This document shows positions 1 through 12,323 of a stretch of 64,000 nt of DNA, one piece after another; the stretch's first letter is position 1, and each line of letters starts with the position of its first letter. Both the position numbers and the translations under genes were made by a program. The notes under the pieces are model-generated. The model saw only the letters and a program-made list of their open reading frames with translations. It did not search any database and had not been told where the DNA came from. Source of the stretch: Tabrizicola sp. Its GTDB lineage: Bacteria > Pseudomonadota > Alphaproteobacteria > Rhodobacterales > Rhodobacteraceae. Location: assembly GCF_016793705.1 (NCBI RefSeq), contig NZ_JAEULO010000064.1, forward strand, positions 1-64,000, given 5' to 3'.

Positions 1-64
1 AACTCACTCACAAACGATGATCGCGCAAAAACACCCCCGAAAGGCGGTCGCGCAAACCAAGTGT

Positions 65-141
<77 letters not shown>

Positions 142-154
142 TCGTCACCGAACT

Positions 155-186
155 GCCAAGAGCCCCGCAAACGCGGGGCTCTTGGC
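155..186 (+). terminator. intrinsic terminator of the tRNA gene
   Basis: A perfect 14-bp stem (GCCAAGAGCCCCGC with GCGGGGCTCTTGGC) closes a 4-nt AAAC loop 13 nt after the tRNA CCA end. Only a short T-containing tail follows. The GC-rich stem and position fit a factor-independent terminator. Confidence 0.85.
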
Positions 187-261
187 GTTCTGGGCCAGGC
201 CGGTCAACGCCAGACCAGAACAGGCGGCAACCGCACGAACCGATCCCATCTCCACCTCCAG

Positions 262-1041
262 TCACAGGTCACTGGAACTTGCCGTCAAGCGTTTCACGAT
301 CTCGTCAGCGGCAGCCACGAGTTTTGACAGGTGCTCCTTGACGACGTTGTCCTGCGAGATGGCGCTCTTGTAATAGAAGAGATTCAGGCACGCGATCGGA
401 TCGTTCCTGACAAGCACTGGAACGGCAATCGCGCCGAAACCATCTGCCTTGTGTTCGCTTCGGATGCCGTAACCGCGCTGGCGTGTGTCCAGCAGCAGCC
501 TGGAGAGTGCATCTTCGTCCCGGAGCATGCGGTGGCCTGGGTTCTCGCTGCGGATCGCTCCGATGATCTCGCTCCGGCGATGCTCGGCGCTGAACGCCAG
601 GTAGACGCGTCCGACCGCCGTGAGCAGCATGTCCGGCTGATGGCCGTGCGCCGATGGCTTGATCGCAAATGGACTGAGCATTCTGTTGGAAGATATGACA
701 ACCATCCTGTTCCCGTCCGGAATGACGAGATCGCTTGGCCAGACGGCGTCACGGCAGAGCTTGCTCAGAACGGGGACCGACACTTCCTGAAGGGCGACGC
801 GCAGGTCCGGTGTCCTGCGCATGAGAAAATTGTTCGCGCTCAACCGGTATCGCTTGTCGTCGATCGGGCGGAAGACAATTCCTGCGGTCTCGAGCGTTTC
901 GAGGATGCGCAGAAGACTGGGCTTGGGCAGGCCCGTCGCATCGTGCAGCTGCTGCAGGCTGCATGGCTCCAGGTCCATCACGCTTCGAATGACATCCAGC
1001 CCCCGCATCAAGCTCTGCATCTTCGGATCGCCCTGTCCCAT
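262..1041 (-). CDS. IclR-family transcriptional regulator
   Basis: About 259 residues, the usual IclR length. The N-terminal winged helix-turn-helix starts at SLMRGLDVIRSVMDL and includes LHDATGLPKPSLLRILETLE. The rest is the IclR ligand-binding domain (VGRVYLAFSAEHR, RGYGIRSEHKADGFGAIAVP). The frame stays open upstream to 1314, but that would overlap the P450 start, so I chose the ATG at 1041; ATGs at 1065 and 1020 are also possible. It is divergent from the P450 gene, so it most likely controls that operon and its own expression in response to the imported compound or a breakdown product. Which compound is unknown. Confidence 0.9.
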   Translation of the reverse strand: MGQGDPKMQSLMRGLDVIRSVMDLEPCSLQQLHDATGLPKPSLLRILETLETAGIVFRPIDDKRYRLSANNFLMRRTPDLRVALQEVSVPVLSKLCRDAVWPSDLVIPDGNRMVVISSNRMLSPFAIKPSAHGHQPDMLLTAVGRVYLAFSAEHRRSEIIGAIRSENPGHRMLRDEDALSRLLLDTRQRGYGIRSEHKADGFGAIAVPVLVRNDPIACLNLFYYKSAISQDNVVKEHLSKLVAAADEIVKRLTASSSDL

Positions 1042-1074
1042 CACCCTGATACGAAAGTGGATCATAGCGAGATA

Positions 1075-1089
1075 TTCCGCAGTGTGGAA
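1075..1089. promoter_or_regulatory. candidate IclR-family operator
   Basis: TTCCGCAGTGTGGAA is a 15-bp near-perfect palindrome with one mismatched pair around the central G. It lies just upstream of the regulator gene, in the divergent interval with the P450 gene. Other IclR-family sites are similar TTCC/GGAA-type palindromes. Assignment rests on symmetry and position only. Confidence 0.4.
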
Positions 1090-1226
1090 CTCATTCGGAT
1101 TGCGATTGCCGCCTCTGCACTTCGGGGAAACAGTTCGATCCGGTCCGTGACAAAGCCCTCGGCGGCGGCAGGATCGGGCAACCAGCCGGATCGTGCTGCT
1201 CGCCACATACCGAATGGGGGAGGAAG

Positions 1227-3518
1227 ATGTCGAAACCCGAAATGGCGCCCGGGCGTCAATCAGGCTGTCCCTTCTCGGCCAGGGCACGCACATTCGATCC
1301 CTTCGGCCCCGCATTCCAGGCCAGTCCGGGAGACGCGCTGCGTTGGGCCCGCGACGAGGAACCGGTCTTCTACAGCGAAACGATGGGATACTGGGTCGTC
1401 TCGCGCTACGAGGATGTGAAGAGCGTCTTCCGTGATCCGGTTCTTTTTTCCGCCTCGATTGCCCTTGAAAAAGTCACCCCCGCCCCCGAGGAAGCGGGCC
1501 GGATCCTGGAACACTATGGCTATGCGCTCCGGCGCACCATGGTCAACGAGGACGAACCCGACCACATGCTGCGTCGGCGACTGCTGATCGACGCCTTCCT
1601 GCCGGCCAATCTTGAACGCCATACGGCGATGATCCGGCACCTGACAACCAGACGGGTCGATGCCTTCATCGCCAGGGGCCGCGCGAACCTTGTCGAAGAG
1701 CTTTTCTGGGAAGTGCCGATGGAAGTCGCGCTGCGATTTCTCGGTGTGGACAGCAACGATATTGCCGAGCTGAAGTCGTTCTCGGTTGCCCACACGGTCA
1801 ACACATGGGGAAAGCCGAAGCCCGAAGAACAGCTCCATGTCGCTGAGTCGGTCGGCCGGTTCTGGCAGGCGTCGGGCCGGATCCTGGAAAAGATGCGCAG
1901 GACCAAAACCGGCACCGGCTGGATGTTCGACAGCATTCGGCAGAACGCGCTGCATCCGGAGATCGTCACCGACAGCTATCTGCATTCGATGATGATGGCG
2001 ATCCTTGTGGCCGCGCACGAGACGACTGCACATGCCTCGGCGAATGCGGTTCGTGCACTGCTCTTTGACCCTACCGCCTGGAAGGAAATTGTCGCCAATC
2101 CAGGCCTCATTCCGAACGCGGTCGAGGAATGCCTGCGTATCGCCGGCTCGGTCGTTGCGTGGCGGCGGATCGCGACTTCAGATGCGGTGGTCGGCGGGGT
2201 CGCAATTCCGAAGGGTGGACGCATTCTCATCGTCCAGGCATCGGCCAACACGGATGAACGCCATTTCGAACGGCCGGAAGAACTTGACCTTTACCGAGAG
2301 AATGCATCGGACCATCTGACCTTCGGCTACGGCGCGCATCAGTGCATGGGGAAGAATATCGCGCGTCTCGAGATGCGGATATTCATCGAGGAATTGTCCC
2401 GGCGTCTCCCGGAGCTGCGGCTTGCGGAACAGAGCTACACCTATGTGCCCAACATTTCGTTCCGCGGCCCCAGCGAGCTTTGGGTCGAATGGGATGCGGA
2501 CGCGACGCGCGCGCGCGCCATCCCATCGGCGGCTGCCCGCGATTTCCCGATCGGCCCGCCCGAAAGATCTGAAATTCAACGTCGGCTCATGGTTGCCGAG
2601 GCGATTTCGGAGGGCGGCCGGATACTGCACCTGAAGCTTGTCGATCCCGACGGCCGCCCCTTGCCGGAATGGAGTGCGGGCAGTCATGTCGATCTGGTGG
2701 CCCACGGCTACACGCGCAAGTATTCCCTTTGCGGCGGGGCGGGGGACGAGGGCAGTTTCCGTGTCGCCATCCAGCTTGAGCCCCAGGGTCGTGGTGGCTC
2801 GCGCCATTTCCATGACAAGATGCGGGTCGGGCAGATCCTGCTGGCGGCGGGCCCGAGAAATCACTTCCGGCTGGACGAGGCCGCCGGGTGTTATCTTCTG
2901 ATCGCCGGTGGCATCGGCATCACGCCGATCCTTGCCATGGCCGACCGGCTCAAGGCGAGCGGGAAATCCTATCGTCTTCTCTACGCGGGCCGCCACCGGG
3001 ACGCGATGGCATTCGTCGACAGGGTGGCGCGTGATCATGCCGACGCGGCAGAGATCTTTGTGGGCGAGGACGGCCGCCGGATGGATCTGGGCACCGAGCT
3101 ACGGCAATTCCCCGACGAGGGCCGGATCTATGCCTGCGGTCCCGACCGGCTGCTTGCGGCATTGCAGGAGCTGGGCGCCAAGGGCCCGCCCGGCTGGCTG
3201 ACGACCGAGAGTTTCTCGGGCACCGATACGGCGCTTGATCCTGCGCGGGAACATGCCTTCACGGTACATCTGGCCGATTCCGGTCGGGATATCACGGTTG
3301 CGGCCGACAAGACCGTGCTTGATGCGCTGGCCGAGGCGGGCATCGACATGCCGTGCGACTGCCGCGAAGGGCTTTGCGGCAGCTGCGAGGCTACCGTCAT
3401 CGAAGGCGGGATCGATCATCGTGACAAGGTGCTGAGCCCCGCAGAGCGGACCGGAGGGACGCGAATGATGACCTGCTGCTCGCGGGCGCAAGGGGATCGC
3501 CTTGTTCTCGGGCTCTAG
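1227..3518 (+). CDS. self-sufficient cytochrome P450 fused to reductase and ferredoxin (CYP116B type)
   Basis: A 763-residue three-part fusion. Residues 1 to about 425 are P450, with the I-helix motif AAHETT near 264 and the haem loop FGYGAHQCMGKN carrying the ligand Cys373. Residues about 435-670 are a phthalate-dioxygenase-reductase-like FMN/NAD(P)H module (RKYSLCG; GGIGITPILAM). The C-terminus is a plant-type [2Fe-2S] ferredoxin with Cys712, Cys717 and Cys720 and a fourth cysteine in MMTCCS. This P450-PFOR order is that of CYP116B enzymes such as P450-RhF, which hydroxylate or O-dealkylate aromatic and alkyl substrates without separate redox partners. A GGGGGAGGAAG Shine-Dalgarno precedes the ATG. 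The gene heads the catabolic operon. Substrate not predictable. Confidence 0.96.
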   Translation: MSKPEMAPGRQSGCPFSARARTFDPFGPAFQASPGDALRWARDEEPVFYSETMGYWVVSRYEDVKSVFRDPVLFSASIALEKVTPAPEEAGRILEHYGYALRRTMVNEDEPDHMLRRRLLIDAFLPANLERHTAMIRHLTTRRVDAFIARGRANLVEELFWEVPMEVALRFLGVDSNDIAELKSFSVAHTVNTWGKPKPEEQLHVAESVGRFWQASGRILEKMRRTKTGTGWMFDSIRQNALHPEIVTDSYLHSMMMAILVAAHETTAHASANAVRALLFDPTAWKEIVANPGLIPNAVEECLRIAGSVVAWRRIATSDAVVGGVAIPKGGRILIVQASANTDERHFERPEELDLYRENASDHLTFGYGAHQCMGKNIARLEMRIFIEELSRRLPELRLAEQSYTYVPNISFRGPSELWVEWDADATRARAIPSAAARDFPIGPPERSEIQRRLMVAEAISEGGRILHLKLVDPDGRPLPEWSAGSHVDLVAHGYTRKYSLCGGAGDEGSFRVAIQLEPQGRGGSRHFHDKMRVGQILLAAGPRNHFRLDEAAGCYLLIAGGIGITPILAMADRLKASGKSYRLLYAGRHRDAMAFVDRVARDHADAAEIFVGEDGRRMDLGTELRQFPDEGRIYACGPDRLLAALQELGAKGPPGWLTTESFSGTDTALDPAREHAFTVHLADSGRDITVAADKTVLDALAEAGIDMPCDCREGLCGSCEATVIEGGIDHRDKVLSPAERTGGTRMMTCCSRAQGDRLVLGL

Positions 3519-3545
3519 GCGAACCGCTGCAAGATGAGAGATCAA

Positions 3546-5003
3546 ATGAAGGAAATCAGGAACCTCGTCGCGGGCACCTGGCTGGGTTCGGAAAGGACCT
3601 GGGTCAAGTCCAGCCCCTTTGACGGTCGCCCGGTGGCACGAGTGAACGAGGCCACACGGGAGATGATCGATGCAGCCGTGGCGGCGGGCAAGTCCGCGGC
3701 GCTCGGCGAATGGGGGGCGATGGCAGTCCGTCAGAGGGCAGCGATCATACGGGACATGGGCGCGAAGCTCGCACGGCGGGTCGACGACCTGATCGAGGCC
3801 GACATGGCCGATACCGGCCGATCCTACTGGCAGGCCTGCAACTTCGATGGCAAGCGCGCCACCACGCTTTTTGAAACCTATTGCGATCTGGCGATCGGGC
3901 TTGAAGGAAGAACCAACGGCTTTCAGGGTGAAGGCGGTTTCCGGGGCCTCTGGATGACGAACCGTCGCCCCAAGGGTGTCATCGCCTGTATCGCGCCCTG
4001 GAATGTTCCGCTCCTCATGATGTCGTTGAAGCTCGCTCCGGCGCTGGTCATGGGCAATGCCGCCATTGCGAAGCCGTCCGAGGAAACTCCCTCGTCGACG
4101 ACGATCCTCGCCGAGGTCATTGCCCAGTCCGATATTCCCGATGGCGCCTTTTCGCTGCTGCACGGGTTCGGCCGCAATTCCACTGGAGAGATGCTGACTT
4201 CCCACCCTGGCGTCGATGCCATCACCTTTACCGGCGAGCCAGGGACAGGCAGCGCGATCATGAAGGCGGCGGCGACAGGTCTGCGCGAGGTCGCCATGGA
4301 GCTTGGCGGCAAGAACGCGGCTCTGGTGTTTTCCGATTGCGACATGGATGCGGCCATCGAGGGCACGCTGCGTTCGGCATTCTTCAACTGTGGCCAGATC
4401 TGCTTCTGCACAGAGCGGGCATATGTCCATCGATCACGCCTTGACGAGTTCCTCGAGCGGCTTGTCACGGCGGCGCGGGCCATTGTCATCGGACAGCCGC
4501 ACCACGACGGCTTCAGCATCGGGCCGCTGATTTCCACCGTCCACCGGGCGAAAGTCATGGAACTTGTCAATTCGGCGGCGGCTGAAGGAGGCAAGATCGA
4601 GACCGGCGGTCGGATACCCGAATTCGGCGATGCGCGAGATGGCGGCGCCTTCTACGAACCGACGATCATCACCGGCCTGTCCGACCGGGCACGATTGATG
4701 CGCGAAGAGACTTTCGGGCCGGTGATCCATGTCGCACCCTTCGACGACGAGGAAGAAGTGATCTCGCGGGCGAATGACAGCGACTATGGTCTTGGCGCCG
4801 TGATCTGGAGCCAGGACATCAACCGCTGCCTGCGGGTGGCGCCACGCCTGCGTGTCGGCCATGTCTGGATCAATTCATGGCAGATCCGGGATCTGGGAAG
4901 CCCGCTGTCCGGTGTCGGCATATCCGGCGTGGGGGAGCAGTTCGGCGTTTCGAGCCTGAACTTCTGTTCGCAGCAGCAGACGATCACCGTCCGCATCACA
5001 TGA
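3546..5003 (+). CDS. NAD(P)-dependent aldehyde dehydrogenase
   Basis: About 485 residues of the aldehyde dehydrogenase superfamily: the nucleotide-binding loop FTGEPGTGS, general-base Glu252 in MELGGKN, and catalytic Cys286 in FFNCGQICFC. The ATG at 3546 is chosen because GAGAG lies 5 nt upstream; an in-frame ATG at 3534 is the alternative. It starts 27 nt after the P450 stop, so the two are almost certainly co-transcribed. A natural role is to oxidise an aldehyde released by P450 dealkylation or alcohol oxidation; that role is inferred from context. The subfamily resembles semialdehyde and aromatic-aldehyde dehydrogenases, but I cannot fix the substrate. Confidence 0.93.
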   Translation: MKEIRNLVAGTWLGSERTWVKSSPFDGRPVARVNEATREMIDAAVAAGKSAALGEWGAMAVRQRAAIIRDMGAKLARRVDDLIEADMADTGRSYWQACNFDGKRATTLFETYCDLAIGLEGRTNGFQGEGGFRGLWMTNRRPKGVIACIAPWNVPLLMMSLKLAPALVMGNAAIAKPSEETPSSTTILAEVIAQSDIPDGAFSLLHGFGRNSTGEMLTSHPGVDAITFTGEPGTGSAIMKAAATGLREVAMELGGKNAALVFSDCDMDAAIEGTLRSAFFNCGQICFCTERAYVHRSRLDEFLERLVTAARAIVIGQPHHDGFSIGPLISTVHRAKVMELVNSAAAEGGKIETGGRIPEFGDARDGGAFYEPTIITGLSDRARLMREETFGPVIHVAPFDDEEEVISRANDSDYGLGAVIWSQDINRCLRVAPRLRVGHVWINSWQIRDLGSPLSGVGISGVGEQFGVSSLNFCSQQQTITVRIT

Positions 5004-5161
5004 TGAGATCACCCGGCATGCCTGTCAGGCCCGGCATCTGCTCTATTCCATTCTGCGGAATTTTTTTCGTCGTTCACGCAAATGAAACTCGCGGAAGATG
5101 CTGTTGCCCGGGCCGGGCAGTTCGGTTCACTTCGCAGACAGGTTAACAGGCAGGACAGGGA

Positions 5162-6025
5162 ATGCAGCAATCGGGACCAGAGCCGGTACGCCCGGATGGC
5201 ACGGGGGGAGGGGGCTTACCGGAGCCGCTGATCGAGCTGTCGGACGTGACCGTGCGGTATGGCGCCGGCCCAGGTTCCGTGCTCGCCGTCGACAAGTTTT
5301 CGCTCGCGATCCCGCAGCGCTGCTTTCTGAGCATCATCGGCCCATCGGGCTGCGGAAAAAGCTCGGTGCTCAATCTGATCGCCGGCTACCATAAACCCTC
5401 GTCGGGCACGGTTCGGATGAACGGGACCGAAATCGTCGGCCCTGGCCCCGAGCGAATGGTCGTTCACCAGCAGAGCACCGCGCTTTTGCCCTGGTTCAGT
5501 GCGGCGAGGAACGTGGCGCTTGCCCTGACGGCGCGCGGCCAGCCCAAGGCCGCCGCGCGCGAAGGTGCGCGCCATTACCTCAACATGGTCGGGTTGGCGG
5601 GGTTCGACGATCACCCGATCTATCAGCTGTCCGGCGGCATGCGGCAACGACTTGCGCTCGCCCGGGCCTTGGCGACCGAAGCCAAGGTCATTCTGCTAGA
5701 CGAACCGCTTGGTGCGATCGACGCCCTGCAACGCGCTGTCCTTCAAGACCTTCTCATCCGCCTGTGGGATGAGACGCATACCTGCTTCGTGATGATCACG
5801 CACAGCGTCGAGGAGGCAGTCTATGTCTCGACAGACGTCATTTCCATGTCGGCCCGACCCGGCAGGATCATCCGGCAGCAGAAATTCGACTTCAACCGCT
5901 CAGCATTGGCCGGAGCCGACTCGCATGTCCGCGCCAGCCCTGAATTCGCGGAGGCGGAAGAGGAACTCTATGAAACGCTCACGGCTGCATCATCTGGAAA
6001 AACGGCCCCATCGGAAGGAGACTGA
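5162..6025 (+). CDS. ABC transporter ATPase, nitrate/sulfonate/taurine type
   Basis: A 287-residue ATPase with Walker A GPSGCGKSS near residue 60, Q-loop region VVHQQSTALLPW, signature LSGGMRQRLALARAL, Walker B VILLDEPLG and switch histidine in ITHSVEEA. These match the TauB/SsuB/NrtD group. The start follows AGGACAGGGA. It stops one base before the binding-protein gene, and two permeases follow, so the whole importer is encoded here. About 160 nt separate it from the aldehyde dehydrogenase, which leaves room for an extra promoter; none was evident. Confidence 0.95.
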   Translation: MQQSGPEPVRPDGTGGGGLPEPLIELSDVTVRYGAGPGSVLAVDKFSLAIPQRCFLSIIGPSGCGKSSVLNLIAGYHKPSSGTVRMNGTEIVGPGPERMVVHQQSTALLPWFSAARNVALALTARGQPKAAAREGARHYLNMVGLAGFDDHPIYQLSGGMRQRLALARALATEAKVILLDEPLGAIDALQRAVLQDLLIRLWDETHTCFVMITHSVEEAVYVSTDVISMSARPGRIIRQQKFDFNRSALAGADSHVRASPEFAEAEEELYETLTAASSGKTAPSEGD

Positions 6026-6026
6026 A

Positions 6027-7043
6027 ATGAACAAGCTTGCGTTTGCGGCTACACTTCTTGCGACCATGGCACTGTCACCGCTGTCTGAGGCGCAGACGGC
6101 GAAGGAGCTGCGCGTCACCAATACGGGGTGCGTCTGCTTTCTGCCCGTCAATCTGGCGATCAAGAAGGGCTGGCTTGATGAAGAGATGGAGAAACTTGGC
6201 GTAACGGTCGCGATCCAGCAATACGAAGATGGCCCGTCCCAGACCGCGGCTCTTCTGTCCGGCTCGCTCGACATCGCGCAATATGGCTCGACCGGCGTTG
6301 TCTCGCTGCTCGCCCGTGACGCGGAAGTGTCGATCTTCATGCTGTCGGACAACGAAGTCAGTACCGAGGGTCTCGTCGTCAAGAGTGACGCGGGAATTGC
6401 GTCGGTCGCCGATCTAGAAGGCAAGACGGTGGGCGTGACTGCGGGTACGACCTCCGATTACGGGCTGCGCGCGGCCCTGATCGAGGCCGGTGTGCCCGCC
6501 GAAAAGGTTTCGATCGTCGGCATCGCCCCGCCGGCCATGGCCGCTGCATGGGAGCGCGGCGAAATCCAGGCATCCTATGTCTGGGATCCGATCCTGTCCC
6601 GCCTCGCCGCCAATGGCGGAACGGTGCTTCAGACCATCGGCCAGCTTTCTGACGCGACGGGAGGCAAGTACAAGATCGTCAACTTCCACGTCGTCTCTGC
6701 GAGTTTCGCCGCCGAAAACCCGGAGATCGTGAAGGGATATGTGCGCGCGATCGACCGCGCGACGCAATATATCCACGAGAACACCGAAGAGGTGGCGGCA
6801 GAGTTCAAGGATGAGTTCGGCGCGGTTTCGGACGAACAGGCGGCCCAGCAGATCAGGGGCGAACAGTTCTTCCTGGCATCCGAACAGTTGTCGCCGGATC
6901 TGATGGGCGACGGTTCGGCGCCCGGTGCCTTGTCGAAGCTTCTGGCCAACGTCTGGCAGTTCAGTTTCGACCAGGGCGCGGTCACGACTGCACCCGACCA
7001 GGCCGTGATCGACGCCGCCTTCGACACGCAGTTCCTCAAGTGA
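6027..7043 (+). CDS. periplasmic substrate-binding protein, TauA/SsuA-like
   Basis: 338 residues starting MNKLAFAATLLATMALSPL and cleaved probably after SEAQ, so exported. The mature part has the NMT1/TauA fold pattern: GWLDEEMEKLGV, LLSGSLDIAQYG, DLEGKTVGVTAGTTSDYGLR, PPAMAAAWERGEI, SYVWDPILSRLA. The ATG follows GGAAGGAG. It is the specificity subunit of the importer formed with the ATPase and two permeases around it. Family members bind taurine, alkyl or aryl sulfonates, sulfate esters, nitrate or thiamine precursors. The sulfatase at the operon's end favours an organosulfur ligand, but this is inference. Confidence 0.93.
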   Translation: MNKLAFAATLLATMALSPLSEAQTAKELRVTNTGCVCFLPVNLAIKKGWLDEEMEKLGVTVAIQQYEDGPSQTAALLSGSLDIAQYGSTGVVSLLARDAEVSIFMLSDNEVSTEGLVVKSDAGIASVADLEGKTVGVTAGTTSDYGLRAALIEAGVPAEKVSIVGIAPPAMAAAWERGEIQASYVWDPILSRLAANGGTVLQTIGQLSDATGGKYKIVNFHVVSASFAAENPEIVKGYVRAIDRATQYIHENTEEVAAEFKDEFGAVSDEQAAQQIRGEQFFLASEQLSPDLMGDGSAPGALSKLLANVWQFSFDQGAVTTAPDQAVIDAAFDTQFLK

Positions 7044-7864
7044 GACCGCAGATGGCGACCCGGGAACGCAGGCGTCGGCAACCAAGAGGACCGCTTACAG
7101 CCGGGAAATTCCCCACCGTGAGCGTGGTTTCCGTCGTCACTGGCCTTTGCGCCTGGGCCGCCATCGCATCGAGCGGGCTCTTGTCGAAGATCCTCCTGCC
7201 GCCGCCGTCCGAGATGTGGCGCGTCGCCGGCATCCTCTTCTCGCAGGGTTATGCCGGTGTTTCCTTCTGGACAAACTACGGAGTCAGCCTCCTGCGGCTG
7301 GCAGAAGGCTTCGGTCTTGCGGTCGTCATCGGCACGACGCTCGGTATCGCCATGGGCCGCAACAGGGTCATTTCCAACCTGATCTATCCGCTGATCGAAG
7401 TCTATCGACCCTTGCCCGCACTGGCCTATTTCACGCTGCTCGTCCTGGCCCTCGGAACGGGCGAGGCGTCAAAGATCGCGGTGCTGACGCTTGGTGGCCT
7501 GCCCCCCGTCCTGCTGGCGACAAGAGAGGCTGCTGCAACGGTGCGCCAGGACCGTGTCGAGGCGGCGCGGTCCATGGGGCTTTCTCCGATAAGGATCCTC
7601 ATGATTGTCATCTTGCCGTCCTGCCTGCCGGAAATCATCACCGGCGCCCGGATCGGCTTTGGATTGTGCTTCACCACGCTTGTCGCCGCCGAGATGATCG
7701 CCGCGAATTCGGGTCTTGGCTGGATGACCTATCAGGCGGGCCAGTACGCGGAATCTTCGGTGCTGGTCATTGGCCTGATCGTCATGGGCTTTACCGGCAT
7801 CGTTGCCGACCTCGGCTTTCGGCTTCTCTACCGGCGCCTGACGCCATGGGTCGGCAAGGCATGA
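7040..7864 (+). CDS. ABC transporter permease (TauC/SsuC-like), first of two
   Basis: A 274-residue BPD_transp_1 inner-membrane permease with about six hydrophobic segments and the ATPase-docking loop EAARSMGLSPIRILMIVILP. The GTG start overlaps the binding-protein stop (GTGA at 7040-7043); an ATG at 7052 is the alternative. Relatives in the taurine/sulfonate family often use one permease as a homodimer. Here a second, different permease follows immediately, suggesting a heterodimeric channel. Confidence 0.92.
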   Translation: MRPQMATRERRRRQPRGPLTAGKFPTVSVVSVVTGLCAWAAIASSGLLSKILLPPPSEMWRVAGILFSQGYAGVSFWTNYGVSLLRLAEGFGLAVVIGTTLGIAMGRNRVISNLIYPLIEVYRPLPALAYFTLLVLALGTGEASKIAVLTLGGLPPVLLATREAAATVRQDRVEAARSMGLSPIRILMIVILPSCLPEIITGARIGFGLCFTTLVAAEMIAANSGLGWMTYQAGQYAESSVLVIGLIVMGFTGIVADLGFRLLYRRLTPWVGKA

Positions 7865-8667
7865 ACCGAAAGCGACCTGTCCACCTTCGCCCCCTCGATG
7901 AGATTCTGAACCCGGTCGTCGGAGCCGCGATCAGCTTTTCCCTCGTCATCGTCATGTGGTTCCTGCTTACCCGGAATGCGACAGGCGCCGCTCTTTTCCC
8001 GTCACCCGAGCAGGTTGCCGCGGCCTTCCAGCGCATCGTCCGCGAAGGCTATCTCGGCTCGCCTCTCGGCCAGAGCATCAAGATCAGCCTGCAACGCATC
8101 GCCCTGGGCTGGAGCGTCTGCATCCTGCTTGGCGTCATCCTCGGCTTTGCGATGAACGCCTCAGCCGTCGTGCGTGATGCGGTGATGCCGTGGCTTGCCT
8201 TCTACAGACCACTCCCGCCCCTCGCCTACCTCAGCCTCATCGTGCTTTGGCTGGGTGTTGGCGAGACATCGAAAATCACTCTTCTCGTGCTCGCGGGCCT
8301 GCCTCCGGTGATGATCGGCACGATGACCGCGCTGCAAGCGGTGCGGCCAGAGCGCGTCGAAGCCTTCCGTTCGATGGGCGTTGGCCCCTGGCAAACGCTT
8401 GCGCAGCTCTATTTCCCGACCGCCCTGCCAGCAATACTCGTGAGTGTGCGCATTTCCTTCGGGGCATGTTTCGCGGCACTGATCGGCGCCGAAATGATCG
8501 CGTCGGAGTCAGGCATTGCCTGGATGGTCATCGCTGCAACGAACCGGGGCGCTACGGACGTGGCGATGGTTGGCGTGCTGCTGATGTCTGCAATCGCGCT
8601 GGCCGTCGACATGGCGCTCCGCCTGCTTCAGACGCACCTCGTCCCCTGGACCAAGCATGAGCAGTGA
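7861..8667 (+). CDS. ABC transporter permease (TauC/SsuC-like), second of two
   Basis: A 268-residue paralogue of the preceding permease, with the docking loop VEAFRSMGVGPWQTLAQLYFP and repeated PLPPLAYLSLIVLWLGVGE-like segments. Its ATG overlaps the previous stop (ATGA at 7861-7864), so translation of the pair is coupled. Both copies keep the EAA-loop glycine, so neither looks degenerate. Confidence 0.92.
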   Translation: MNRKRPVHLRPLDEILNPVVGAAISFSLVIVMWFLLTRNATGAALFPSPEQVAAAFQRIVREGYLGSPLGQSIKISLQRIALGWSVCILLGVILGFAMNASAVVRDAVMPWLAFYRPLPPLAYLSLIVLWLGVGETSKITLLVLAGLPPVMIGTMTALQAVRPERVEAFRSMGVGPWQTLAQLYFPTALPAILVSVRISFGACFAALIGAEMIASESGIAWMVIAATNRGATDVAMVGVLLMSAIALAVDMALRLLQTHLVPWTKHEQ

Positions 8668-8723
8668 CACGACTGCCGAAGAACCCGGCGCTTCAGGCGC
8701 GATAGATGCAGGAACTACCGCAC

Positions 8724-10328
8724 ATGGCTGATACAAGGCCGAACTTCCTCGTTTTCATCACCGACCAGCATCGTGCGGATCATCTTTCCTGCATGGGAAA
8801 TCCCGTCCTGCGGACGCCGAACATCGACGCCATCGCCGCGCGTGGCAGGCGTTACGAAAAATTCTACGTCTCGACGCCGATCTGCATGCCGAACCGGGCC
8901 ACGCTCTTCACCGGCCGGATGCCGTCGCTGCATGGGGCGCACTGCAACGGCGCACCGCTCGCCCTGTCCGCCAACACGCTGACCGAGCTGCTGCGGTGCG
9001 ACGGCTATCGCACCGAGCTGGTCGGAAAGGTCCATCTCCAGAACATGACCGGCCGACCGGCGGCGATGGAGCGAAATTGCCCGTCGGGCCTGCGTCACCC
9101 CCCCGAGTCGCATCGCGAGGCCTGGCTGGGTTTGTGGCGCGATGGCCGATATGATCAGGAGAATACCGCTCTCTGGCAAGACAACCCCGCCCACCAGCTT
9201 GACCTGCCCTATTACGGTTTCGAGAAGGTGAGGCTCTGCACCATGCATGGTGATGTGGTCGGGGGCGAGTGGCGTCGGTGGGCGGGGCAGATGCTGCCTG
9301 ATCTTGCCGCTCTGATCGGACCGGCCAATGCCTCGCCCGACCAGCGATACACCGTTCCGCAGGGCTACCGCACCAGGCTTCCCGAGGAGTATTATCCGAC
9401 GACCTTTGTCGAGCAGCACACGGTTGCCGCTCTCGAGTCCTGTGCGGACGACAGGTCCAAACCGTTCTTCCTGGTCTCGTCGTTCCCTGATCCCCACCAC
9501 CCCTTCACGCCGCCGGGGCACTACTGGGACCTCTATGATCCGGACGAGATCATGCCACCGTCAAGCCTTGCCGCCCGCGAATGCCCGGCCTCGCCGGTGC
9601 TCGACCACATGCGCGCGCGCCATCTTGCGGGTGGCGAGAACAGGCAGGGCACCACGCCTTTCATCGTCGACGCGCGCGAAGCGTGCGAGGCTATCGCCCT
9701 CAGCTACGGCATGATCGCCATGATCGACGATGCGGTCGGACGCATAATGGCGCGGTTGCAGGCACTCGACCTTGCTGAAAACACGATCGTCATCTTCATG
9801 AGCGATCACGGGGACTTCATGGGCGACCACGGGCTGATGCTCAAGTCCGCGCTGCATTACCAGGGTCTGGTACGCGTGCCATTCATCTGGTCCGAGCCGG
9901 GCATGGCCGCGCCTGGACATCCGACGCGAGCCTTGCACAGCACTCTGGATTTCGGTCGGACCATTCTGGCGCGCGCGGGCATTGCGCCGTTCTGGGGCAT
10001 GCAGGGGCGCGACATGGCGCCCAGCCTCGCCGATCCCGAAGCCGCCGGCCATGACGCGCTTCTGATCGAAGAGGATGGACACGAGACCGGCATGGGATTT
10101 TCCGCGCCGGTCCGGGTAAGAACGCTCATGACGGCGCGGCACCGTCTTTCCATCTATGACGATACCGATTGGGCTGAACTTTACGATCTTGAGAATGACC
10201 CCGACGAAATGTCCAACCTTGTCGATGACCCTGCACATGCCAGCCTGCGATCCGCTTGCTTCGAGCGGCTCTCGCGTTTGATGACCAGCCTTGCCGACCG
10301 CAGTCCGTTTCCAATCGGGCGGGCGTGA
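8724..10328 (+). CDS. sulfatase-family hydrolase, cytoplasmic (type I sulfatase / phosphonate monoester hydrolase superfamily)
   Basis: About 534 residues. The metal site begins with NFLVFITDQHRADHLSCMG, and the formylglycine motif is CMPNRATLFTG with Cys54. It fits the C-x-P-x-R core needed for oxidation to formylglycine, though the usual Ser/Ala before Arg is Asn. The C-terminal metal motif is MSDHGDFMGDHGLM. No signal peptide is visible, so it should act in the cytoplasm on an imported substrate. The ATG at 8724 has AGGA 10 nt upstream; an in-frame ATG lies at 8706. As last gene of the P450/transporter operon it probably releases sulfate, but related enzymes cleave phosphonate or phosphate esters. 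Confidence 0.9.
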   Translation: MADTRPNFLVFITDQHRADHLSCMGNPVLRTPNIDAIAARGRRYEKFYVSTPICMPNRATLFTGRMPSLHGAHCNGAPLALSANTLTELLRCDGYRTELVGKVHLQNMTGRPAAMERNCPSGLRHPPESHREAWLGLWRDGRYDQENTALWQDNPAHQLDLPYYGFEKVRLCTMHGDVVGGEWRRWAGQMLPDLAALIGPANASPDQRYTVPQGYRTRLPEEYYPTTFVEQHTVAALESCADDRSKPFFLVSSFPDPHHPFTPPGHYWDLYDPDEIMPPSSLAARECPASPVLDHMRARHLAGGENRQGTTPFIVDAREACEAIALSYGMIAMIDDAVGRIMARLQALDLAENTIVIFMSDHGDFMGDHGLMLKSALHYQGLVRVPFIWSEPGMAAPGHPTRALHSTLDFGRTILARAGIAPFWGMQGRDMAPSLADPEAAGHDALLIEEDGHETGMGFSAPVRVRTLMTARHRLSIYDDTDWAELYDLENDPDEMSNLVDDPAHASLRSACFERLSRLMTSLADRSPFPIGRA

Positions 10329-10630
10329 GCGGTTTGCAGGCACATGCCGAGCGATGCCCCATCGTGACGCCGCGAGAGCGCCGCATGAGCTGACACCATG
10401 ACGCGCCAGGCGCCGAGATTCTCGATCGGTCGCCGGCATCCTGTTTCATCCGACGGCGGGCACGGGGGCGGGCGAGCTACGCCGGTGAGGCCAGCCGCTC
10501 GGGCCATGTCGGTCCCGGGGCGGAGGTCGGAGCAGCCGGGTGGTCCGTTTCGGCATGGCGGCGCTTGCGGGTCGGTGCTATCCCCGGGACAACCGGGGGC
10601 TTGCGCCATCCCGATGCGGCAGGAGGAAGC
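10329..10630. other. intergenic region between catabolic module and fatty-acid genes
   Basis: About 300 nt with no convincing gene. A short CCCCGG/CCGGGG hairpin sits at 10582-10598, a weak structure of unclear role. No copy of the tRNA 3' end, transposase remnant or long repeat was seen to mark an island boundary. Confidence 0.5.
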
Positions 10631-11338
10631 ATGATGACGACGGACAAGGTGGCGCTGGTCACGGCGGGCGGGTCGGGCATGGGCGCGGCGGCGGCGCGCA
10701 GGCTTGTGGCGGATGGCTTCCGCGTGGGGATCCTGTCCTCCTCGGGCAAGGGCGAGGCGCTGGCGGCGGAACTGGGCGGCGTGGGCGTGACGGGGTCGAA
10801 CCAGAACCCGGACGATGTGGCGCGGGTTGTCGATGCGGTGATGGCGAAATGGGGCCGGGTGGACGTGCTGGTCAACAGCGCCGGTCACGGGCCGCGCAAG
10901 CAGATCCTGGAGCTGACCGATGCCGACTGGCAGGGCGGCATGGACGTCTACTTCCTGTCCGCCATCCGCCCGATCCGGCTGGTGACGCCGATCATGCAGG
11001 CGCAGAAGGGCGGCGCGATCGTCAACATCTCCACTGCCTGGGCCTTCGAGCCCTCGGCGATGTTCCCGACCTCGGCCGTCGCCCGTGCGGGCCTGGCCGC
11101 CTTCACCAAGATCTATGCCGACACCTATGCGCCGGACAACATCCGCATCAACAACGTCCTGCCCGGCTGGATCGACAGCCTGCCCGCCACCGAAGAACGA
11201 CGCCAAAGTGTCCCGATGGGCCGCTATGGCCGCAGCGAGGAAATCGCGGCGACGGTCGCCTTTCTCGCCTCGGACGGCGCGGGCTATATAACGGGCCAGA
11301 ACCTGCGCGTCGACGGCGGCATCACCCGCAGCGTCTGA
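10631..11338 (+). CDS. SDR-family oxidoreductase-like protein with altered catalytic motif
   Basis: 235 residues of the short-chain dehydrogenase/reductase fold: nucleotide loop TAGGSGMGAAAAR, NSAG in place of NNAG, the structural serine in IVNISTAW, and a normal C-terminal IPL-type region (DGAGYITGQNLRVDGG). The catalytic Y-x3-K is replaced: by alignment with the FabG at 12335 the positions are Ser148 and Arg152 (PTSAVARAGL). Classical hydride-transfer catalysis is therefore doubtful. A strong AGGAGG precedes the ATG (10631; 10634 also possible). It lies 55 nt before fabD, on the same strand. It could be an unusual reductase or a non-catalytic binding protein. Confidence 0.85.
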   Translation: MMTTDKVALVTAGGSGMGAAAARRLVADGFRVGILSSSGKGEALAAELGGVGVTGSNQNPDDVARVVDAVMAKWGRVDVLVNSAGHGPRKQILELTDADWQGGMDVYFLSAIRPIRLVTPIMQAQKGGAIVNISTAWAFEPSAMFPTSAVARAGLAAFTKIYADTYAPDNIRINNVLPGWIDSLPATEERRQSVPMGRYGRSEEIAATVAFLASDGAGYITGQNLRVDGGITRSV

Positions 11339-11343
11339 CCGCA

Positions 11344-11372
11344 TTGCAGAACCGGCCTCGTCGCGCTATCCC
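11344..11372 (+). promoter_or_regulatory. candidate promoter of fabD
   Basis: TTGCAG and TATCCC are separated by exactly 17 nt in the short gap upstream of fabD. The -35 is good, the -10 only half matches. fabD could equally be read through from the SDR gene. Confidence 0.35.
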
Positions 11373-11393
11373 CAAGGAAACCAAGGGGGGAAC

Positions 11394-12323
11394 ATGAGCC
11401 GCGCATTCGTCTTTCCGGGGCAGGGCGCCCAGACCATCGGCATGGGCAAGGCACTGGCCGAGGCCTATCCGGCTGCGAAGGCCGTGTTCGACGAGGTCGA
11501 CGCCGCCCTTGGCGAAAAGCTCTCCTCCCTGATCTGGGAGGGCGACATCGCCGAGCTGACGCTGACGCAGAATGCGCAACCCGCGCTGATGGCGACCTCG
11601 ATCGCCGCGCTGCGGGCGCTGGAGGCGGAAGGCTTCGGGCTGGATCAGGCGAGCTTCGTCGCCGGGCACTCCCTGGGCGAATATTCCGCCCTTTGTGCCG
11701 CCGGGTCGCTGACGCTGTCCGACACCGCGCGGCTTCTGCGCATCCGGGGCAGGGCGATGCAGGAGGCCGTCCCGGTTGGCATCGGCGCGATGGCGGCCCT
11801 GCTGGGCCTTGATTTCGAGACCGCGACCGCCGTCGCCGCCGAGGCCGCGCAGGGCGAGGTCTGCCAGGCCGCAAACGACAACGACCCTGCGCAGGTCGTC
11901 GTCTCCGGCCACAAGGCCGCAGTGGAGCGCGCGGTCGAGATCGCCAAGGCCAGGGGCGCCAAGCGCGCGCTGCTGCTGCCGGTGTCCGCCCCCTTCCACT
12001 GCGCGCTGATGCAGCCCGCCGCGCATGTGATGGCCGAGGCGCTGGCGGCGGTGCCGATCGCCAAACCGCAGGTGCCGGTCGTGGTCAACGTCCGCGCCGA
12101 AGCGGTGATGGAGCCGGACCGCATCCTCGACCTTCTCATCGCGCAGGTCACGGGCTCGGTCCGCTGGCGGGAAAGCGTCCTCTGGATGGAAAAGGCCGGC
12201 GTCACCGAATTCTGGGAGATCGGCGCGGGCAAGGCGCTGTCGGGGATGATCAAGCGCATCGCCCAAGGCGCCACCACCCGCGCCATCGCCACGCCCGAAG
12301 ACATCGCCGCCCTCAAGGCCTGA
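11394..12323 (+). CDS. fabD: malonyl-CoA:ACP transacylase
   Basis: 309 residues, the normal FabD length. It opens with AFVFPGQGAQTIGMGK and carries the nucleophile Ser93 in GHSLGEYSAL; a histidine in SAPFHCALM completes the catalytic pair. It transfers malonyl groups from CoA to acyl carrier protein for fatty-acid elongation. GGGGGGAAC precedes the ATG. It is followed 11 nt later by fabG, then acpP and fabF, the standard fatty-acid cluster. Confidence 0.98.
   Translation: MSRAFVFPGQGAQTIGMGKALAEAYPAAKAVFDEVDAALGEKLSSLIWEGDIAELTLTQNAQPALMATSIAALRALEAEGFGLDQASFVAGHSLGEYSALCAAGSLTLSDTARLLRIRGRAMQEAVPVGIGAMAALLGLDFETATAVAAEAAQGEVCQAANDNDPAQVVVSGHKAAVERAVEIAKARGAKRALLLPVSAPFHCALMQPAAHVMAEALAAVPIAKPQVPVVVNVRAEAVMEPDRILDLLIAQVTGSVRWRESVLWMEKAGVTEFWEIGAGKALSGMIKRIAQGATTRAIATPEDIAALKA

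Follow-up and report, generated by a model that had tools for sequence, protein, structure and literature searches.

The 64,000-nt window analyzed here, positions 1 to 64,000 of contig NZ_JAEULO010000064.1 of a Tabrizicola sp. genome (GCF_016793705.1), opens with a block of genes (262-10328) that we read as an acquired, importer-coupled cassette for the desulfation and hydroxylation of a small sulfated aromatic acid, a reading drawn from sequence comparison to which we give a probability of roughly 0.42. The parts of this cassette are known and their combination is new. The original prediction had described an IclR-family regulator and seven co-directional genes next to a tRNA-Met gene, and this layout is borne out by the open reading frames (ORFs), the Pfam families, and the tRNA call (tRNA-Met, CAT, 65-141, plus strand, the left neighbor of the block). 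Every protein in the block scores above its Pfam family cut-off, and the plus-strand genes, in order from a cytochrome P450 to a sulfatase, are spaced by 15, 158, 1, -4, -4, and 56 nt. The wider idea of import, desulfation, and oxidation put forward for these genes is supported in part.

The last gene of the block encodes the sulfatase (8724-10328, plus strand), whose protein matches PF00884 with 130.6 bits (cut-off 25) and carries both the CxPxR motif, here CMPNR, and the active-site residues of the sulfatase family. Asp14, Gln15, Cys54, Arg58, Lys102, His104, His258, Asp361, His362, and Lys374, i.e., 10 of the 12 active-site positions examined, are identical in all 40 aligned members. A pattern scan of 39 proteins found CMPNR in 32 and CQPNR in 3, while two proteins of locus L170 read CGASR; Ala replaces the motif Pro in 3 of the 40 aligned sulfatases. 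Of 38 sulfatase relatives, 26 have a co-oriented importer gene no more than three genes away, as against 22 of 120 control genes from the same loci, which supports the importer-coupled desulfation originally proposed. This count covers the 38 gene-called members at 34 loci, three of which (L015-L017) are near-identical Alcaligenes loci, and leaves aside the members at L126 and L177, which were lost by the gene caller; minus three distant members (the second copy in L166 and two of L170), it becomes 25 of 35. The further claim that the sulfatase has no signal peptide agrees with our reading of its N-terminus, where none is evident, and the protein is presumed cytoplasmic; the N-terminus of the binding protein of the importer reads as a signal peptide. 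The sulfatase subfamily looks like an importer-coupled desulfating unit serving several compound classes.

Several other loci of this subfamily are of interest in their own right. Elsewhere in the same genome, an operon at L172 (G000:C31:2500-13364) holds a second TauABC-type importer together with a CxPNR sulfatase; it encodes a binding protein, an ATPase, two permeases, an IclR protein, a class III aminotransferase (as two overlapping ORFs), an APH-type kinase, and the sulfatase. Its importer proteins are distantly like those of the window (25-34%), and the row suggests a sulfated amino alcohol as the substrate. The row at L176 (5233-13408) consists of DctPQM-type TRAP genes, a sulfatase, a rhamnonate-dehydratase-like protein (212 bits, cut-off 393), a DHDPS-family protein, and an aldehyde dehydrogenase, and looks like a set for the catabolism of a sulfated sugar acid. 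At L170 (3607-6508 of G176:C6), a P450 gene ends 13 nt before a distant SpAS-like sulfatase gene, with two more sulfatase genes close by; this P450 is of another type, being 24% identical to the window P450 and matching PF00067 with 94 bits. TauD is among the genes downstream of the sulfatase at L178.

The first plus-strand gene (1227-3518) encodes a P450 with the self-sufficient CYP116B architecture, in which a heme domain is fused to a flavin/NAD reductase and a 2Fe-2S ferredoxin domain. The protein aligns over its full length with the solved self-sufficient P450s 6KBH and 6LAA, and its heme domain aligns with that of P450 RhF (6RO8). Matches at E 1e-60 occur in 28 of 290 genomes of the family (own genome counted), the best being 73% identical (G288), and a search of 385 genomes of the class gave 2 matches at E 1e-100, one of which is the own genome. 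Among 22 homologues, 102 heme-domain columns are invariant when gapped columns are skipped and L066 is excluded because of its interrupted ORF; the window P450 keeps 101 of them, the exception being Met to Leu at 381. By alignment, five pocket positions of CYP116B234 (Ala84, Thr198, Trp199, Ser313, and Val314; 5 of 18 pocket positions, per the available part of PMC11889516) are also identical.

As far as the accessible portions of the two source papers go, the established physiological role of CYP116B enzymes is that of 2-hydroxyphenylacetate 5-hydroxylases: OhpA of Cupriavidus pinatubonensis JMP134 turns 2-hydroxyphenylacetate into homogentisate, its gene being accompanied by an IclR regulator gene and a transporter binding-protein gene (excerpt of PMC8449657), and the same role is suggested for CYP116B234 (excerpt of PMC11889516). 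The window P450 shares 53% identity with the CH34-strain CYP116B, for which PMC8449657 gives 80% identity to OhpA. The closest P450 relative (73%; L089, 3882-10155, in G288) is adjoined, by our reading, by a divergent IclR-like gene and TRAP-importer-like genes. Because its neighbors are of TRAP type, the importer type would differ between related P450 units.

Divergent from the P450 gene, with starts about 185 nt apart, lies the regulator gene (262-1041, minus strand; PF01614 and PF09339). The long ORF spans 262-1314 on the minus strand, and we put the likely start near 1041 or 1020. Its best NCBIfam model is PRK09834 (141 bits), which we take to be the MhpR type, and it scores 88 bits with the PcaR/PcaU/PobR model, both values being below the cut-off. 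A downstream route for a hydroxylated phenylacetate is present in the genome, because genes of both the homogentisate and the homoprotocatechuate pathways are found there: hmgA (643 bits, cut-off 511) with, by reading, an HPPD-like gene near it, and hpaD (441 bits, cut-off 316) with nearby homologues of hpaE (75%), a FAH-family gene (61%), and hpaH (65%) of locus L065. On the Pseudosulfitobacter plasmid that carries L065 (2756-11277), a CYP116B gene comes immediately downstream of those for the homoprotocatechuate pathway, in the same orientation.

Window position 1 is base 1 of the contig (C56 in our numbering), so that the left flank of the block falls outside the contig. To the right, an SDR-family dehydrogenase gene (~10631-11338, plus strand) is probably outside the cassette and part of the native flank; it adjoins fabD, at 91-94% identity, in 4 of the 13 congener regions fetched. 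Because the SDR gene is conserved beside fabD in congeners, the right boundary is taken to lie near 10.6 kb, with the SDR gene and then fabD belonging to the host chromosome. As a DNA query against 31 other genomes of the genus (59 to 100% complete), the whole block retrieved short fragments only, the best among the matches listed being 475 bases at 66%. The best match of the binding protein is 35% identical among 294 other genomes of the family and 37% identical on plasmids. In G683 (L134), a stretch resembling the 3' portion of the window tRNA (86% over 66 bases), in which ARAGORN calls no tRNA, precedes the SDR gene by about 1.1 kb; in G695 (L129), some 9.1 kb of different sequence separates a tRNA-Met gene from fabD. 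The interval upstream of fabD is therefore variable within the genus, and the block was most likely gained by horizontal acquisition. Two other possible marks of acquisition were set aside. The only flanking repeat was a 20-nt stretch at 10529-10548 that resembles a segment of the tRNA at 80%; matches this good are common, and it was not counted as a sign of integration. The lower G+C of the block (0.606-0.640, against 0.66-0.69 in the next 10 kb) was dropped as a sign since values down to 0.616 occur elsewhere in the window.

The original prediction proposed that the gene set be sought in other genomes. It was sought through the P450, the aldehyde dehydrogenase, the sulfatase, and the binding protein in 280-295 genomes of the family per query, one genome-contig pattern scan, and a plasmid collection, with neighborhoods taken for part of the matches. 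Parts of the set recur, namely the sulfatase adjacent to the aldehyde dehydrogenase in two genomes, the P450-sulfatase pair of L170, and the importer-sulfatase operon of L172; the whole set was found in no other locus examined, and this weighs against a single cassette for a sulfated aromatic acid, as do the following results. No ortholog of the aldehyde dehydrogenase, TauABC, or the sulfatase lies beside the P450 in any of 21 P450 loci (L065, L066, and L098 hold distant aldehyde dehydrogenases, at 27-34%), CYP116B is found in none of 36 sulfatase loci, the one P450 seen being that of L170, and the window IclR protein has no match at E 1e-3 among the proteins of 23 CYP116B loci; in L186, CYP116B does have a neighbor annotated as an IclR protein. 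The genes downstream of the sulfatase relatives are very different from one another, and the substrate class of the window sulfatase is not fixed by them. The own assembly, which is 94.5% complete and encodes seven PF00884 proteins, yielded no recognizable formylglycine-generating enzyme: its sole PF03781 protein seems on reading to lack the Cys pair, and the anSME model reaches 26 bits where the cut-off is 349. A gap in the assembly could explain this, as could maturation by some other route. Homogentisate formation from 2-hydroxyphenylacetate needs no aldehyde dehydrogenase, and the pocket residues of the P450 are, according to the available part of PMC11889516, widely conserved in CYP116B and insufficient to fix a substrate preference.

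The block could also consist of two unrelated passenger units, IclR-P450-aldehyde dehydrogenase and ABC importer-sulfatase, joined side by side by chance. We consider this unlikely. It would fit the 158-nt gap between the aldehyde dehydrogenase and ATPase genes, which is the largest in the row, the confinement of the whole set to this locus among those examined, and the variability of the interval upstream of fabD. Against it, the seven genes are co-directional with no plus-strand terminator-like site at 1-11600 in a consensus scan (seven sites were found, all on the minus strand, and shuffles averaged 7.6, making this weak evidence), and in two other genomes an aldehyde dehydrogenase of the same family stands directly beside a sulfatase of this subfamily. 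Matches to the aldehyde dehydrogenase at E 1e-120 occur in 13 of 285 genomes of the family (own counted), with 62-63% identity in G176, G201, and G227. In two of these three, at loci L126 and L127, the gene directly adjoins a sulfatase gene whose product is 41-44% identical to that of the window; in G227, both genes are at contig ends and adjacency is only possible. Because the L126 and L127 sulfatases branch apart from the window sulfatase, the association is more than a simple copy of one locus.

The two rows, L126 (2361-14499) and L127 (390-10695), each contain a LysR-like regulator, an NMT1/TAXI-type binding protein, a TRAP permease, the sulfatase, the aldehyde dehydrogenase, and a thiamine-diphosphate enzyme. 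In L126, these include a PF16868 binding protein, a DctM-type permease, and a thiamine-diphosphate enzyme matching PRK08327 (574 bits, cut-off 456), and a formylglycine-generating-enzyme gene is nearby (PF03781, with a Cys pair by reading). In L127, the TAXI and TRAP-permease homologues were recognized by clustering and are accompanied by the thiamine-diphosphate enzyme; further on lies a LigM-type vanillate/3-O-methylgallate demethylase (608 bits, cut-off 580).

The aldehyde dehydrogenase of the window (3534-5003, plus strand) is closest to 2-aminomuconate semialdehyde dehydrogenase and, in an alignment with it, keeps the equivalents of Cys302, Glu268, Asn169, Arg120, and Arg464. The two arginines are described in the consulted portion of PMC4286809 as strictly conserved in the hydroxymuconic-semialdehyde dehydrogenase family and not found in other aldehyde dehydrogenases. 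By this mark the window protein belongs to that family, its exact substrate not being fixed by the score, since it reaches 581.7 bits with the 2-hydroxymuconic semialdehyde dehydrogenase equivalog TIGR03216 (cut-off 693.25). Because both family-marking arginines are kept, the oxidation of a small aldehyde from O-dealkylation is unlikely. A module for O-, N-, or S-dealkylation, in which the P450 cleaves off an alkyl group and the aldehyde dehydrogenase oxidizes the aldehyde released, is thus improbable. The 15 nt between the two genes speak for it, and a CYP116A gene is known to stand with an aldehyde dehydrogenase gene in thiocarbamate degradation (thcB/thcA). CYP116B1 oxidizes thiocarbamates (excerpt of PMC8449657), and P450 RhF dealkylates test compounds (excerpt of PMC11889516). 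Opposed to these are the established ring hydroxylation by CYP116B enzymes (in the available parts of both papers) and the arginine pair, which is confined to its family (PMC4286809), a family that selects substrates with an acidic group. The original prediction had allowed the P450 either O-dealkylation or hydroxylation; hydroxylation is favored by the CYP116B roles and the conserved pocket, and O-dealkylation, with the oxidation of the aldehyde it would release, is not borne out.

For the sulfatase, scores stay below the cut-offs of choline sulfatase (TIGR03417, 196.3 of 433.45), PehA (161 of 900), and arylsulfatase (PRK13759). The solved relatives include phosphonate monoester hydrolases besides sulfatases, and 9 of 11 active-site residues are common to the two groups; the protein could on that showing be a phosphonate-monoester or phosphodiester hydrolase, with the importer carrying an organophosphorus compound. 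This is quite improbable in our view, as the importer is of the sulfonate/taurine family, the block holds no phosphonate genes, and the closest PDB entry is SpAS1 (4UPI), an arylsulfatase.

Between the aldehyde dehydrogenase and the sulfatase, the plus strand encodes an ABC ATPase of TauB/SsuB type (5162-6025; PRK11248, 235 bits, below the cut-off of 357), a periplasmic binding protein of TauA/SsuA/NMT1 type (~6027-7043; by profile and TauA alignment), and two permeases of TauC type (7040-7864 and 7861-8667; PRK10160, 198 and 169 bits, cut-off 342). All of them fit Tau/Ssu families, and all fall below the equivalog cut-offs. The binding protein scores 137.9 of the 304.25 set for TauA (TIGR01729). 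In an alignment with a derived numbering offset, it keeps the TauA ligand contacts Gly61, Gly79, Glu106, and Thr132, has Asn at the position of Asp205, and probably has Thr in place of Gln30; Asp205 is named in the available part of PMC6906117 as the TauA residue conferring taurine selectivity. The protein is probably not a taurine binder, and its ligand is likely anionic. That the block scavenges sulfonates for sulfur in the manner of TauABC/SsuABC, with the other genes incidental, is very unlikely: the importer family and the 4 of 6 TauA contacts kept would suit it, but neither TauD nor SsuD is encoded in the block to carry out desulfonation, Asn replaces the Asp205 on which taurine selectivity depends, regulation falls to an IclR protein, and sulfatases are not known to cleave C-S bonds. 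Import of a sulfonate, the alternative to an ester in the original prediction, stays conceivable, with the lack of a desulfonating enzyme and the replaced Asp205 speaking against it.

Under the favored reading, in which the block desulfates and hydroxylates a small sulfated aromatic acid, events would proceed as follows. The IclR protein would sense the compound or a breakdown product. The TauABC-type importer, judging by its family and by the association of importers with sulfatases, would carry the intact anionic ester into the cell, where the sulfatase, with Cys54 matured to formylglycine, would remove the sulfate in the cytoplasm; family and residues are seen in the protein, and substrate, maturation, and location are presumed. 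The CYP116B P450 would then hydroxylate the ring of the freed phenolic acid, as OhpA does; this fits the family of the P450 and the pocket residues that it retains. Breakdown would be completed by the homogentisate or homoprotocatechuate pathway of the chromosome, for which genes are present. The aldehyde dehydrogenase may oxidize a semialdehyde with an acidic group, as its family would have it, for instance a ring-fission product, and where it acts is the least secure part of the scheme.

A broader and somewhat doubtful extension is that CxPNR sulfatases act generally as a plug-in unit for desulfation, every one of them paired with its own importer (of TAXI-TRAP, DctPQM-TRAP, tripartite tricarboxylate, or TauABC type) and a different downstream set (a sugar-acid dehydratase; a kinase and aminotransferase; a thiamine enzyme, aldehyde dehydrogenase, and O-demethylase; or a TauD oxygenase), the window version feeding a CYP116B hydroxylase. 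If true, this would be a route, not described before, that leads an aromatic sulfate ester to homogentisate or homoprotocatechuate. Plants, algae, and animal waste contain sulfated phenolics, and little appears to have been written about bacteria importing aromatic sulfate esters intact for use as carbon sources; a search of mainly open-access literature turned up neither an aromatic sulfate-ester operon that includes a P450 nor TRAP-linked cytoplasmic sulfatases. The cassette would tie sulfated phenolics to a known P450 route, orphan CxPNR sulfatases would gain a testable role, and the ligand of the binding protein would name the substrate. For the aldehyde dehydrogenase, the assignment is narrowed, with an acidic semialdehyde as the expected substrate in place of a generic activity.

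Among known systems, AtsRBC-AtsA of pseudomonads couples an ABC importer to an arylsulfatase and is not known to include a P450 or an aldehyde dehydrogenase. The window sulfatase matches the arylsulfatase of P. aeruginosa (1HDH) weakly, at 54 bits. With the formylglycine sulfatases of the SpAS1/choline sulfatase/phosphonate monoester hydrolase group (4UPI; PMC5870055), the window sulfatase shares the Asp-Gln, Cys-x-x-x-Arg, Lys, His, Asp-His, and Lys set; it differs in its CxPNR motif and in scoring below the choline sulfatase and PehA cut-offs. TauABC/SsuABC, so far as the accessible part of PMC6906117 describes TauA, shares with the block the ATPase, binding protein, and permease families and several ligand contacts; in contrast, the window has two different permease genes, and Asp205 and probably Gln30 are replaced. 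The catalytic residues (Cys, Glu, and Asn) and the arginine pair that binds the substrate are common to the window aldehyde dehydrogenase and the 2-aminomuconate/2-hydroxymuconate 6-semialdehyde dehydrogenases (4I1W; excerpt of PMC4286809), whereas the former stays below the equivalog cut-off and stands in a block with no ring-cleavage gene. Lastly, ohpR-ohpT-ohpA, in the portion of PMC8449657 available, has in common with the block an IclR gene divergent from a transporter/CYP116B unit, a self-sufficient CYP116B, and a homogentisate pathway in the genome; where it has a tripartite-tricarboxylate binding protein, the window block has a TauABC importer instead, together with an aldehyde dehydrogenase and a sulfatase.

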